Source: Ruminococcus sp.
GTDB lineage: Bacteria; Bacillota; Clostridia; Oscillospirales; Ruminococcaceae
Direction of reading: 5' to 3'
Length of the DNA: 60,735 nt
Assembly (NCBI GenBank): GCA_015066975.1
Contig: SVNI01000005.1
Coordinates: forward strand, 1-60,735
Below the pieces are notes generated by a model. The model was not told where the DNA came from. It worked only from the letters and a program-made list of their open reading frames with translations, and made no database searches. Both the position numbers and the translations under genes were made by a program. Below, one piece after another: positions 1,964 to 52,351 of this stretch (positions are counted from its first letter, which is position 1; every line of letters begins with the position of its first letter).

Positions 1964-3001
1964 TTATTTAAACTGCTGTAAGAATCTCAGGTCAGCACTA
2001 TGGAACAGACGCACATCATCCACACCGTAGCGCATCATAACAAGACGGTCAAGACCGATGTTGACATAGAAGCCTGTAAATTCATCAGGATTCAGACCAG
2101 CCGCACGGAGCACATTCGGATGAGGCGTACCGCCGGGCATGATTTCAATCCAGCCGACATTTTTGCAGACACTGCATCCTTTTCCTCCACACACCAGACA
2201 GCCCATATCGATTTCAAAGCCCGGTTCTACGAACGGGAAGAAGCCGATACGCATTCTGACAGGCACTTCCCTGCCGAATACTTTAGACAATACGCTCTGG
2301 AGCATAATTTTTCCGGAAGCAAAGTCAATATTTTTATCCACAATCAGGGCTTCATACTGGAAGAATGCTCTTTCATGACGGGCATCCGTAGTTTCATTTC
2401 TGTAGACTCTGCCAGGGTAGACAAATCTGTAGGGGGGGTTATGCGTCTGCATATAGCGGACACTTCCGCCGGTGAGGTGCGGACGCAGGCAGAGTTTTTC
2501 ATTGGTTGTGCCTGTGTCATGACCTTCGAGCCAGTAAGTATCCATACTTTCACGCGCAGGATGATTCTGGGGGAAGTTGAGTTTATCGAAAGCGTATAAT
2601 TCGCTGGTAATATCTTCTTCTTCGTAGATTTCAAAGCCCAGCGAACGGAATGCATCATTCAGGTCATAGCACATCTGTGTGATAGGATGCAGACCGCCGG
2701 AGAGCGGTGCAATGCCGGGAACAGTCACATCAAAATCAGCCGGAATTTCGGAAGCTTTGAGAACTAATTCTTCACGCTTCTGTTCTACCAGAGCAGTCAG
2801 CTTGCCTTTGATTTCGTTGACAATACGGCCGATTTCGGGACGTTCGGACTTGTCGAGTTTCGGCATTTCTTTCATGATTTCTGTTAAAGAACCCTGTTTT
2901 CCGAGCAGGGAAGCCTTGACTTCCTGAAGGGCATTTTCTGTGCCGGCAGCGAGAATTTTCGCTTTGCCTTCACGCAGGAGTTCTTCGAGTTTTTCTTTCA
3001 A
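1964..3001 (-). CDS. pheS: Phenylalanine-tRNA ligase alpha subunit
   Basis: This is the catalytic alpha subunit of phenylalanyl-tRNA synthetase, a class II enzyme acting in the cytoplasm. At 345 aa it has the usual family length. An N-terminal coiled-coil tRNA-binding arm (residues 1-90, with LLGKQGSLTEIMKEM) is followed by the class II core with HPITQMCYDLNDAF, TYWLEGHDT, ERAFFQYEALIVDK and GLDRLVMMRYG. The start codon is TTG at 3001, placed well behind a GGAGG ribosome site. pheT follows after 16 nt. A sigma-A promoter lies just upstream; the leader is far too short for a T-box, so tRNA-Phe-sensing antitermination is unlikely here. Confidence 0.96.
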   Translation of the reverse strand: MKEKLEELLREGKAKILAAGTENALQEVKASLLGKQGSLTEIMKEMPKLDKSERPEIGRIVNEIKGKLTALVEQKREELVLKASEIPADFDVTVPGIAPLSGGLHPITQMCYDLNDAFRSLGFEIYEEEDITSELYAFDKLNFPQNHPARESMDTYWLEGHDTGTTNEKLCLRPHLTGGSVRYMQTHNPPYRFVYPGRVYRNETTDARHERAFFQYEALIVDKNIDFASGKIMLQSVLSKVFGREVPVRMRIGFFPFVEPGFEIDMGCLVCGGKGCSVCKNVGWIEIMPGGTPHPNVLRAAGLNPDEFTGFYVNIGLDRLVMMRYGVDDVRLFHSADLRFLQQFK

Positions 3002-3047: not shown

Positions 3048-3076
3048 ATTATATCACATTCGGGCAGGACTGTCAA
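3048..3076 (-). promoter_or_regulatory. sigma-A promoter of pheST
   Basis: On the minus strand TTGACA (3071-3076) and TATAAT (3048-3053) are separated by exactly 17 bp, with TGA before the -10 box (extended -10). The -35 box overlaps the stop codon of the upstream gene that ends at 3073. Confidence 0.8.
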
Positions 3077-4917
3077 GATTTTTTCTCATCCTGTTTTTCG
3101 TCCTGATATTTTTTCCATGCAGCGCGAATCCAGTCCGGAACACCGAAATCATATTTCATTTCTTCGGGTTTGGCACTGCCGGCAACAGAAACCATGGAAA
3201 GATACTGGTAGACTTCTGCCGGTTCTCTGGTCAGGGCTGTGAAGATTTCACGGCTGAGGTTATATCTCTCGAACAACGGGCGATAGCGTTCTTCATAGAC
3301 AGAAGTACTGTTAATCAGGCAGAGTTTCTGCACCAGACGGAGTACTTTGTTCTGGATACGGCTGACATGTTCTTTGGACATATCCAGTTTCTTGGCGATT
3401 TCAGCGAGGGACTTTCCCTGCATTCTCAGGCGGATAACTTCAATATGCTGTTCTTTTTCTTCTGTATTTTCAACCAGAAATTCCAGAACGGTGGGATATT
3501 TGAGAATATAATATTCCCCTCTGGTTTCATAGATTCTGTCAGAAGCACGCATTTCCTGAAGAATATCTGCCAGAATTTTCTTATCCATGGAGACGGGCAT
3601 ATCTTCGCGGAGCATCGTTTCGGAAAGTCCGGACATTTGTCTGTTGCGGATAAGTCCGGTGATATATCTGTCCAGCAGGGCGCGGACGTGCAAGTCTTTA
3701 TACCAAAGATTCCAGCAGTTTTCTTTCGTCCTGTTTTTTTCGGGCAGTTCGGCACAGAGATATAATTTCAAAGCCCGCTGTTTGGACGGCGTAATGTTGA
3801 GGTCTGCCAGTTCTTCCAGAAACTCATCCAAATACTGCCTGATTTCTTTTGAGACTGGTTTTGCAGCAGGATACACCGGATTTTCTTTTGATTTTTTATA
3901 TCTGCGGATTTCTTCCAGTGTTTTTTCATCAATATGCGGAATGTTTCGGAACGTTTCATCATTTTCCTGCACAAGCTGGCGCGAGCTGCGGATATGCACA
4001 CGGAGCAGGCCATTCTTGGCCTTAACTGAAAGGGGCATTTCGTCCACATAGACGATTTCTTCTTCTGCAAGCATTTCTTCTGTCATGGGGGTCAGGATTT
4101 CTTCTTCAGGTTCTTCATCAATAGCAGGAATTTTATCATCATCCTGTTCCTCCCAGTCTGTAACGGAAGGAATTTCCGGCAGATAGTCAGCATCTTCATC
4201 CAGCAGAGGTGTATGATTGGCGGCATTGCCGGGCATGGAAAGCAAATCCAGTTCATTCAAATCCAGAACAGAAGGAATTTGCGGAAGAATATCCAGTTCA
4301 GCTTCTGACAAATCGCCTTTGAATTCCTGGTCAGGGCATTCAGGCACTTCGATAGTAGGTGTATTTTGTGCTTTATTGCTGTCAAAATTAAAGAATGCTG
4401 AAATTTCCGGCAGATTTTCCAACTCTGACCTTGCTTTTTCTTTTGCCTTGATTTTTTCCTTTTCATTTTCATCAGCAAAAGAAGGAATTGCGGGGAGTGT
4501 TTCTGCCTCCTGCGCACTTTCCGCAAGAGAGAGCAAATCCGGAGCGATATCAGAAACTTCTTCCGGGAAATCATCCGGATTGGAAAAAGAAGGGATTTCA
4601 ATCACTTCCTCGTCTTCCTCCTGTTTTTCTTCTGTAGAAAAGACAGGGATTTCGGGAATGATTTCTTTTCTTGAAGATTCTTCTTCCAAATCTTCTATTG
4701 TTTTTGCAGCAGATTCCATATCCAGCATATCCAGACCGGAAAAAGACGGAACGTCCAGCACAGCTTCAGGTTCTGTTTCCAGCATTTCCGCAAACGGAAA
4801 CGAGTCTGCCATATCTTCCAGTTCCAGAGTATCAATATTAGAAATAGAGGGCACTTCGGGCAGGTCAGGAATCTGGTCGGATTTTATCTGTGCATTATTC
4901 TTTTTTTCATTTTTCAT
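3073..4917 (-). CDS. Acidic PEIPS-repeat protein with sigma-region-4-like HTH
   Basis: I do not recognise this 614-aa protein as a named family. The N-terminal half (about 1-300) is very acidic, looks disordered, and carries about nine copies of a short motif of the form hydrophobic-P-x-(I/V)-P-S-(F/V/I), for example LPEVPSIS, IPEIPVFS, VIEIPSFS, LPAIPSFA and LPEIPSVT, spaced roughly 25-35 residues apart. The C-terminal half is folded-looking and basic; near residues 500-530 it has a helix-turn-helix like sigma-70 region 4 (GKSLAEIAKKLDMSKEHVSR). There is no signal peptide or membrane segment. The ATG has a strong AAAGGAG site 7 nt away. It stands alone between a terminator and pheST. A DNA-binding regulator with a multivalent docking tail is my inference; no function is known. 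Confidence 0.75.
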   Translation of the reverse strand: MKNEKKNNAQIKSDQIPDLPEVPSISNIDTLELEDMADSFPFAEMLETEPEAVLDVPSFSGLDMLDMESAAKTIEDLEEESSRKEIIPEIPVFSTEEKQEEDEEVIEIPSFSNPDDFPEEVSDIAPDLLSLAESAQEAETLPAIPSFADENEKEKIKAKEKARSELENLPEISAFFNFDSNKAQNTPTIEVPECPDQEFKGDLSEAELDILPQIPSVLDLNELDLLSMPGNAANHTPLLDEDADYLPEIPSVTDWEEQDDDKIPAIDEEPEEEILTPMTEEMLAEEEIVYVDEMPLSVKAKNGLLRVHIRSSRQLVQENDETFRNIPHIDEKTLEEIRRYKKSKENPVYPAAKPVSKEIRQYLDEFLEELADLNITPSKQRALKLYLCAELPEKNRTKENCWNLWYKDLHVRALLDRYITGLIRNRQMSGLSETMLREDMPVSMDKKILADILQEMRASDRIYETRGEYYILKYPTVLEFLVENTEEKEQHIEVIRLRMQGKSLAEIAKKLDMSKEHVSRIQNKVLRLVQKLCLINSTSVYEERYRPLFERYNLSREIFTALTREPAEVYQYLSMVSVAGSAKPEEMKYDFGVPDWIRAAWKKYQDEKQDEKKS

Positions 4918-4985
4918 GTGAGTTCTCCTTTGTGTGCCGTTTACATGTATGAATCTCCTGTACCATACAGATGTTATTCTTTTAT

Positions 4986-5014
4986 ATTATAACATAAATT
5001 TTGAGATTAGTCAA
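4986..5014 (-). promoter_or_regulatory. sigma-A promoter of the acidic repeat-protein gene
   Basis: Minus-strand TTGACT (5009-5014) and TATAAT (4986-4991) with a 17-bp spacer and an extended TGT before the -10 box. It lies about 70 nt upstream of the ATG at 4917. Confidence 0.75.
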
Positions 5015-47741: not shown

Positions 47742-47890
47742 TAATATTCACCTCCGCAGAATTATTGTGATACGGAGAACAGAAAAGCTCTCCTGACGTA
47801 CAGGAGAGCATAATAATCTTGATAAAAATCAAACTTCTGCACTCCTCGGCCGGACTTACGGGCAAGCCCACCAGCTGTCTTTAGAATACG
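47742..47890 (-). ncRNA. L10 leader (ribosomal protein autoregulatory RNA)
   Basis: The roughly 150-nt leader between the rplJ promoter and ATG contains GCCGAGGAGTGCAGAAG-like sequence typical of L10 leaders and a strong hairpin, GCTCTCCTG/CAGGAGAGC (47787-47795 with 47801-47809), followed by TTTTCTGTT. This could act as an intrinsic attenuator when L10-L12 is in excess. Confidence 0.7.
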
Positions 47891-47909
47891 TTTTATTCAC
47901 GACTTTATC

Positions 47910-51049: not shown

Positions 51050-52351
51050 TCAAATCTCCTTATGATGTTTTTTCCGTTTCTTCTTGGCAACGGAAACTTT
51101 CTTTTTTTCTTTCGGCCTGACGGCAGGCATAGAAACTGTTTTGAATGTTGCTGTCACGCTGAAATCCAGATTCATTTTCTGTTCTTCTTTCGGCTGTTCC
51201 GGCTGTATGTGTACTTCTGTCACTTTTTCCGGGGGCTGATAGAATACTGGTTCTTCTTTCATTTCAGAAGCTTCCGGATTCGGAGCAGTTTCCTCTTTTG
51301 GGAGAGGTTCTTTGAGCTGTGCTGTATCACGGGTGAAAATCTTCTTCCAGAAATCAGCAATTTTACTGATAAAACCTTTTTTCACAGATTTTGCAGATTT
51401 TTTTGTTTTTTTATGCTTTTTGGATTTTTTATTTTTCTTTCTGGATTTTTTGGTAACTTCGGATTTTGCATGTTCAGTATCAGAAATTTCGGATTCTTCC
51501 AGAGTCACATCACTGAGCTGTTCTGACATTTGTTTTAATCCGGCATCTTCGCCGGAAGTGAACGGGATATCAGGGATTTCCGATAAAGCCGGGATTTCCG
51601 GGCTTTTGGTTTCGCGTAAAAATTTAAGCTGTGCAGAATTTTCGGTTTCTGCAATCTGTGAAAATTCAGAAAGCGCATCTTCCCATGCGGGAATTTCTTC
51701 TTCTGGTTCGGGAAGCACCTGTTCCGGGAGCGGTTCTGGAGGAAGAACCGCCTGTTTCATCTTCCGGCGGATTTCTTCGGCACGTTTGCGGACTTTTTCT
51801 TTCCGGATTTGTTCGGGAGTCCGGGGCGGTGTGGAAGCAAGCACTGCTTCCAGCTTTTCCTGTTTCAGGCGGTCAGCAATGCTGGTATCTCTGGGAACAT
51901 CCGGCGGAAGTTCGTCCTTGATTTCAATATGGAAATTCTTTTTGGGCTGAACCGTATCAGAAAGCGATTCTGTCTGTAATTTCTTCTTTTTCTTATGTTT
52001 TGTTTTTGTGGGTTTCTGTTCTGTTTTAGGGAGTGGTTTTCTGTCGGCATCCGGCTGGGGAAGCGCATCTTCCAGAAGTCTGTCATGCATTCTGACAACC
52101 GGATTCTGAGAAGGTTCTTCTGAAAAATGGCTCACCGGGTCAGGAGTGACAACCGGCGGCCGTTTTCTTGACGGAGGTGCATCATAGACAGGTTTTGGTG
52201 CTGTTGGTGCAGAAGTCCGTTCGCGGTTCATTTTCTCAACAATGGCATCCACTTTCTGACGGGATTCTTCACTGACAGCGATTTCCGGAGAGGGCGGAAG
52301 TTCGGAATCATCCACTAAATTACGGAGCAGGTCATGAAATTCTCGTTTCAT
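51050..52351 (-). CDS. Lys/Pro/Glu-rich, apparently disordered protein
   Basis: This 433-aa protein cannot be assigned. It is low in complexity, with proline-rich acidic stretches alternating with poly-basic blocks (KTKHKKKKKLQ near 120; KKSRKKNKKSKKHKKTKKSA near 305; KKKVSVAKKKRKKHH at the end). A short basic-hydrophobic stretch, FISKIADFWKKIFTRD (about 330), could be an amphipathic membrane- or nucleic-acid-contacting helix. It also carries SPEIPALSEIPDIPFTS, like the repeated motif of the protein at 3073-4917. No signal peptide. It lies between proA and tyrA in a long co-directional run. Confidence 0.7.
   Translation of the reverse strand: MKREFHDLLRNLVDDSELPPSPEIAVSEESRQKVDAIVEKMNRERTSAPTAPKPVYDAPPSRKRPPVVTPDPVSHFSEEPSQNPVVRMHDRLLEDALPQPDADRKPLPKTEQKPTKTKHKKKKKLQTESLSDTVQPKKNFHIEIKDELPPDVPRDTSIADRLKQEKLEAVLASTPPRTPEQIRKEKVRKRAEEIRRKMKQAVLPPEPLPEQVLPEPEEEIPAWEDALSEFSQIAETENSAQLKFLRETKSPEIPALSEIPDIPFTSGEDAGLKQMSEQLSDVTLEESEISDTEHAKSEVTKKSRKKNKKSKKHKKTKKSAKSVKKGFISKIADFWKKIFTRDTAQLKEPLPKEETAPNPEASEMKEEPVFYQPPEKVTEVHIQPEQPKEEQKMNLDFSVTATFKTVSMPAVRPKEKKKVSVAKKKRKKHHKEI

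Follow-up and report, generated by a model that had tools for sequence, protein, structure and literature searches.

The locus raises the question of what a bacterial protein might do with a long acidic region in which one short peptide recurs, fused to a half that resembles parts of the transcription machinery. The protein is encoded by an open reading frame of 614 amino acids with an ATG start codon (gene X in the following), taken from the list of open reading frames and translations for the window, i.e. the whole analysed stretch of 60,735 nucleotides from Ruminococcus sp. A Shine-Dalgarno-like sequence (AAAGGAG) and a promoter-like site are located 5' of the start codon. The positions of the features are compiled in Table 1.

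A preliminary description of this DNA had proposed an acidic disordered region of about 300 residues and a sigma-region-4-like helix-turn-helix (HTH) in the C-terminal half. Both were recovered, the former as residues 1-287, the latter as a match to PF04545 (E 9.5e-6, residues 490-529) above the curated cut-off. Two further domains had been missed, an alpha-CTD-like domain (PF03118, residues 288-338, likewise above its curated cut-off) and a winged helix (about residues 421-475). The acidic region (pI 4.05) stands in contrast to a basic C-terminal half (pI 8.7), and the net charge from the N-terminus up to the start of the alpha-CTD-like domain is -68. The protein had also been said to match no described regulator, and the same architecture was indeed not found in Pfam, NCBIfam, PHROGs, PADLOC, the PDB or the literature searched, which lay mostly outside subscription journals.

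Table 1. Features of gene X and its surroundings, with positions in the window.
Feature	Position	Strand	Evidence or remarks
Gene X, 614 aa	3073..4917	-	acidic motif-bearing disordered region, alpha-CTD-like domain, helical region, winged helix, sigma-4-like HTH, conserved tail
Acidic disordered region, residues 1-287	4057..4917	-	pI 4.05; AlphaFold pLDDT mostly <50 for residues 1-279
Motif 1, LPEVPSI (19-25)	4843..4863	-	core VPSI same in 11/11 aligned orthologues
Motif 2, VLDVPSF (53-59)	4741..4761	-	core [IV]PSF in 11/11
Motif 3, IPEIPVF (87-93)	4639..4659	-	retained in 10/11, one of which has S in place of P; degenerate in L011
Motif 4, VIEIPSF (105-111)	4585..4605	-	IPSF in 9/11; IPDF in L011, gap in L009
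Motif 5, LPAIPSF (141-147)	4477..4497	-	core IPSF same in 11/11
Motif 6, LPEISAF (169-175)	4393..4413	-	core IS[ADS]F in 11/11
Motif 7, LPQIPSV (211-217)	4267..4287	-	core [IV]PS[VI] in 11/11
Motif 8, LPEIPSV (246-252)	4162..4182	-	core [IV]PSV in 11/11
Weak ninth copy, DDKIPAI (260-266)	4120..4140	-	left out of statistics; variable among orthologues, absent from L010 and L011 (the two most distant)
Alpha-CTD-like domain, residues 288-338, R265 and G296 equivalents replaced	3904..4056	-	PF03118 E 8.1e-9; VIA-align Z 9.9, 1.6 A over 57 residues vs RpoA CTD 7vpd_S
Helical region, residues 339-420	3658..3903	-	AlphaFold pLDDT mostly 70-89
Winged-helix region, residues 421-482	3472..3657	-	AlphaFold and VIA-align: 9j89_D Z 8.0, 1.5 A over 64; 8iue_P Z 7.8, 1.2 A over 62
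Sigma-region-4-like HTH, residues 483-536	3310..3471	-	PF04545 above cut-off; SigF region 4 (8jzt_A) Z 7.3, 1.8 A over 56
Conserved tail, residues 537-614, and stop codon	3073..3309	-	84% identity over ten orthologues (537-606), pN/pS 0.10; pLDDT mostly <50
Gene X promoter TTGACT-17-TATAAT (extended -10)	4986..5014	-	present in 9/9 orthologue leaders listed
pheS promoter TTGACA-17-TATAAT (separate, consensus), overlapping gene X stop codon	3048..3076	-	exact in 12/12 loci listed
pheS	1964..3001	-	constant downstream neighbour; adjacent in 12/12 orthologue genomes besides the window's

Eight motif cores start at residues 22, 56, 90, 108, 144, 172, 214 and 249 and read, in this order, VPSI, VPSF, IPVF, IPSF, IPSF, ISAF, IPSV and IPSV; a weak ninth core, IPAI, follows at residue 263. 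The cores have the pattern [IV]-P-S-[FIV] or deviate from it by one or two letters. About nine copies of the formula hydrophobic-P-x-[IV]-P-S-[FVI] had been counted before; eight of them stand, the ninth is lost in the two most distant orthologues, and the formula applies strictly to four copies, while four others are off at one position. The repetition exceeds by far what the composition of the region yields: in 20,000 shuffles of the region, the strict pattern [IV]PS[FIV] was expected 0.03 times (at most 2) and was observed 6 times, and the loose core pattern was expected 0.13 times (at most 3) and was observed 9 times. The consensus obtained by pooling the 11 aligned orthologues reads (E)-x-L-P-E-[IV]-P-S-[FVI]-[SL]-[DN]-hydrophobic.

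Comparison of the orthologues, the check suggested in the preliminary description, came out in favour of that description: the motifs are kept while the linkers diverge. In ten orthologues, the 32 residues of the motif cores showed an identity to the window protein of 0.916, compared to 0.618 for all remaining residues of the region 1-287 (i.e. 92% versus 62%); the alignment could slide one motif onto another, yet each site retains its own flanks (e.g. PSISNIDTL, PSFSGLDTL, PSVLDL). The same difference was found in the orthologues L010 (58% identical; cores 0.812, other residues 0.420) and L011 (42% identical; 0.781 and 0.275). Proline, isoleucine, valine, serine and phenylalanine residues outside the motifs, which served as same-letter control, were conserved only to 0.635 in the ten orthologues, 0.350 in L010 and 0.317 in L011. 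When the motif positions were shifted circularly, none of 286 shifts reached the observed conservation in the ten orthologues or in L011, and one of 286 did so in L010. In L011, the motif cores (0.78) are even better conserved than the winged helix together with the HTH (0.578), the tail (0.471) and the alpha-CTD-like domain (0.396).

The ratios of nonsynonymous to synonymous differences gave the same order. Pooled over pairs of nine orthologues with at least 72% identity (two of the 11 aligned were excluded), pN/pS was lowest of any part of gene X in the motif cores (0.055), followed by the tail (0.103), the winged helix (0.185), the alpha-CTD-like domain (0.228), the HTH (0.235), the helical region (0.269) and the linkers (0.333). 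Synonymous divergence was similar throughout (pS 0.53 in motif codons, 0.56-0.60 elsewhere), and pN of the motif codons was 0.029. Hence, purifying selection in gene X is concentrated on the motif cores in this sample, which consists of 13 genomes of one genus, mostly MAGs. Part of the conservation could be due to a need for spaced hydrophobic residues instead of one pocket.

The C-terminal half was modelled with AlphaFold from 12 sequences (mean pLDDT 69). In this model, residues 288-344 superpose on the CTD of RpoA (7vpd_S) and residues 411-474 on winged helices (8iue_P); in the full-length model the HTH superposes on region 4 of SigF (8jzt_A). Helix-hairpin-helix (HhH) domains of RAD51-type proteins likewise match the alpha-CTD-like domain (Z 9); the specific evidence for this domain is thus the sequence match and not the fold by itself. 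Since Z values below 8 may mean merely a common arrangement, the assignments of the winged helix and of sigma region 4 rest on sequence and domain order as much as on Z. Foldseek found no match to the full protein at E ≤ 0.001, and winged helices dominated the matches of a whole-model fold search. As regards HARE-HTH proteins and the delta subunit of RNA polymerase, in which a HARE-HTH winged helix is combined with an acidic tail, gene X possesses a winged helix, and no HARE-HTH family occurred in its Pfam list. The tail (residues 537-606) is the most conserved C-terminal part, and neither of the two models gave it a confident fold.

Gene X is neither a complete alpha subunit nor a sigma factor. 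The N-terminal assembly domain of RpoA is absent, as the Pfam and NCBIfam matches concern the C-terminal domain only and residues 1-279 are predicted to be disordered. Up to E 10, Pfam gave no match to a family of sigma-70 region 2, which argues against a sigma factor. At the alpha-CTD positions corresponding to G296, N268 and K298, the window protein has D instead of the glycine and retains the other two, and the equivalent of R265 is K; in L011, T, D and H stand for R265, G296 and N268, respectively. R265 and G296 are intact in one RpoA and in all five alpha-CTDs of larger relatives (see below) that were compared. R265 contacts the DNA backbone in the minor groove of UP elements (PMC3828302). 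As its equivalent is replaced in gene X, canonical DNA binding by this domain is doubtful; the fold is kept.

Orthologues of gene X were detected in 13 of the 38 genomes of the genus, including the window's own, and are restricted to one subclade of this one genus. Eleven are full length; that of G036 lacks the N-terminus, and that of G012 is distributed over two contigs. Most are 72-92% identical, and the named genomes are Ruminococcus-like or Oscillospiraceae MAGs, several of them from rumen, omasum or rabbit (Lapin). A 14th profile match (G025) is a different gene of 214 amino acids with an alpha-CTD. In this gene (L028:1462-2103), a sigma-4-like HTH precedes a C-terminal alpha-CTD, the reverse of the order in gene X; it adjoins DNA-polymerase-like genes and looks phage-like.

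Beyond the genus, 396 genomes drawn from the family gave 48 matches to the gene X profile, two gene X genomes among them. Among the matches listed, most are confined to the alpha-CTD and lie in frames of about 290-380 amino acids, as expected for rpoA, and one further protein (L073, E 2.6e-16) matches over the DNA-binding half. With a broader profile, 325 matches were obtained in 394 genomes of the order; nearly all of those listed are rpoA-like alpha-CTD stretches, and long matches outside the genus came, among the matches listed, from four genomes (G067, G556, G606 and G726).

The larger relatives examined (L014/L156, L073, L157, L158 and L159) are open frames of 519-974 amino acids from the same taxonomic order, homologous to gene X from the alpha-CTD through the winged helix and HTH to the tail. 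Each of the five has two or more alpha-CTDs, and those examined begin almost directly with them; four extend about 400-500 residues past the shared tail, while L157 is shorter. The long acidic motif-bearing region was found in none of the five. Gene X, in contrast, has one degenerate alpha-CTD and ends after the tail. Because the relatives have several alpha-CTDs and no acidic start, gene X looks like a shortened, re-tooled member of this family that acquired the motif region. No description of the larger family was found in the literature searched, and it is sporadic and apparently unstudied.

A strictly selected peptide that recurs almost unchanged, while the acidic sequence around it drifts, is in keeping with the repeated docking of one partner. 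The most likely reading, which we regard as an evenly balanced proposition, is that gene X encodes a transcription regulator in the form of a DNA-bound adaptor, on which about eight equivalent peptides would serve as docking sites for a single folded protein. Judging from domain homology, the winged helix and the sigma-4-like HTH would hold the protein on DNA, and docking would thus take place there. The selection on the motifs suggests that the acidic region displays eight near-equivalent peptides, each of which would fit the same pocket of this partner. Several molecules of it might thereby be brought together at one site on the DNA, or avidity might hold one assembly of it. Our guess and first candidate for the partner is RNA polymerase or a factor associated with it, because the C-terminal modules descend from the kit with which the polymerase recognizes DNA upstream of promoters and the alpha-CTD has lost its canonical arginine; the motif array would then be an activation or recruitment arm. 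Some observations do not favour such an adaptor. The pN/pS of the HTH is not especially low and its DNA binding is assumed, three genomes with the same type of pheS have no detectable gene X, and, in the six loci of the genome read in frame, the motif has no other convincing coding context, a single PAIPSI in SepF excepted.

The motifs might instead dock, in cis or in trans, on the C-terminal half of gene X itself, either on the degenerate alpha-CTD or on the tail. The acidic region could in this way shield the basic DNA-binding half, or the proteins could be linked head to tail into condensates on DNA. The opposite charges of the two halves, the retention of an alpha-CTD that has lost its canonical DNA contacts, and the strong conservation of the tail are all in line with such self-assembly or autoinhibition. 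However, AlphaFold, which modelled the motif region with low confidence and revealed no docking site, placed no motif confidently on a folded part; low confidence in a disordered region is in itself uninformative about docking. Moreover, the values for L011 given above mean that the supposed receptor, be it the alpha-CTD or the tail, diverges faster than its ligand. We consider this explanation rather unlikely.

Less probable still is that gene X acts as a local regulator of the adjoining genes for phenylalanyl-tRNA synthetase, although its position invites this idea. Gene X is located directly upstream of pheS in all 13 genomes that carry it, and the pheS promoter overlaps its stop codon. Furthermore, PheS occurs in two types in the genus, 87-100% identical to that of the window in 16 genomes and 36-40% identical in 18, with no match in four. 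Gene X accompanies only the window type (13 of 16 genomes, compared to 0 of 18 with the other type and 0 of 4 without a PheS match). On the other hand, pheS retains an exact consensus promoter and would hardly need an activator, and a switch for one promoter does not need eight docking motifs. In addition, the window-type pheS of G031 is preceded by 1.4 kb of sequence that lacks gene X. Gene X was also not detected in G003 and G030, which have the same pheS type and whose contigs end just upstream. Its absence from these three genomes, as far as the two interrupted contigs permit, indicates that it is not essential there. The conserved promoter of its own argues that gene X is not merely a leader of pheST, and we infer that it is transcribed independently and occupies a fixed position.

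FtsZ is about 73-93% identical over the aligned length across the genus, unlike the two PheS types (pheS loci L101-L130). The split of PheS beside a conserved FtsZ suggests a replacement of pheS, or perhaps of pheST, in the subclade carrying gene X. The leader of gene X (about positions 4925-4985, minus strand) is highly conserved and contains in most orthologues a repeated GTATGGCACA / GTAAACGGCACA element, which is possibly an operator or an RNA signal. Rfam yielded no RNA element near gene X; a ribosomal protein L10 leader (RF00557) is located elsewhere in the window (47772-47902, minus strand).

A link to cell division, by which the motifs would mimic the C-terminal tail of FtsZ or a peptide of the SepF linker and tie the divisome to DNA in the manner of SlmA or Noc, is very improbable. 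The motif does recall the familiar consensus of the FtsZ tail, D-I-P-x-F-L-R. FtsZ was matched in 32 of the 38 genomes of the genus, and 29 of the 30 loci L042-L071 were read. In 27 of these 29 the protein ends with [DE]IF[x]ILG, as does that of the window's genome (NDMDMQEIFDILGGN), and the remaining two are cut short; an IPSF-like end was found in none of the 29. Mimicry of the FtsZ tail was therefore rejected, since none of the loci read has a DIPxFLR-like tail. For the same reason, the divisome partners that read this tail may differ in the genus.

A DNA-pattern scan of the window's genome gave 24 motif sites, and in six loci read in frame the only clear protein beside gene X was SepF, the linker of which contains a single PAIPSI with the same core (L145, G000:C133:51367-51384). 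A second scan, of six gene X genomes, recovered the motif matches in gene X. Across 30 SepF loci (L193-L222), out of matches in 38 genomes, a Px[IV]P[SN]I peptide occurs once in the linker of the closest relatives and is replaced in the rest of the genus. However, the occurrence of this peptide does not follow that of gene X, because the linker reads PPVT[SN]I in three more distant gene X genomes (G012, G032 and G036) as well as in G003, G030 and G031, in which no gene X was found. A further probably disordered protein in the window, charged and rich in proline, comprises 433 amino acids (positions 51050-52351, minus strand) and contains PEIPALSEIPDIPF.

That the motifs have no specific function at all, being a proline-rich, hydrophobic low-complexity stretch with repeats made by slippage and conserved through the relatedness of the species, would agree with the high identity of most orthologues but is barely credible and effectively refuted, since the motif codons combine an ordinary pS with a very low pN, the same-letter control and the circular shifts contradict it, and the motif blocks share only 65% of their nucleotides with each other.

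Searches for an origin from mobile elements gave no match of gene X among plasmids or phages, and the gene X profile had no match in viral contigs. With the profile of the larger family, eight loci in viral contigs were found, whose matches do not reach beyond the N-terminal alpha-CTD portion of the query. PADLOC reported only weak matches to PglW, at E 0.003 for gene X and E 2e-8 for L073, both located in the alpha-CTD stretch.

Compared to known systems, gene X shares fold and family score with the CTD of RpoA (PF03118) and differs from RpoA by the missing alpha-NTD and the replaced DNA-contact arginine and glycine. With sigma-70 factors it has region 4 in common, where the fold matches that of SigF and SigS, and it differs from them in having no match to region 2 in Pfam. 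The IPSF motif and the FtsZ tail peptide are only superficially alike, as the tail ends differently in this genus. The nucleoid-occlusion factors SlmA and Noc resemble the proposed adaptor in that a DNA-binding protein is linked at the peptide level to another machine. As in multivalent scaffolds of short linear motifs, the motifs of gene X are kept and the linkers diverge.

A further parallel is found in eukaryotes, where acidic activation domains are disordered arms that bear spaced hydrophobic or aromatic motifs and are joined to a DNA-binding half. For bacterial transcription factors, the usual view is that they touch RNA polymerase via single folded surfaces. It is a tentative idea, to which we give clearly less credence than to the adaptor as such, that gene X is a bacterial counterpart of such a coactivator-docking arm, in which about eight strictly selected motifs and a polymerase-derived DNA-binding half might bring a partner (RNA polymerase or a factor associated with it) to DNA in several copies by multivalent docking, perhaps as a condensate. 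If this were true, bacteria would also use multivalent motif arms at DNA, with peptides under stronger selection than the folded domains, and the consensus peptide would be a ready bait for the partner in Ruminococcus-like bacteria of rumen and gut. Like the eukaryotic activation domains and motif arrays, gene X combines an acidic disordered arm and spaced hydrophobic motifs with a DNA-binding half; it differs in belonging to a bacterial host and in being known from its sequence, and, unlike most activation domains, it keeps both the sequence and the order of its motifs strictly conserved.
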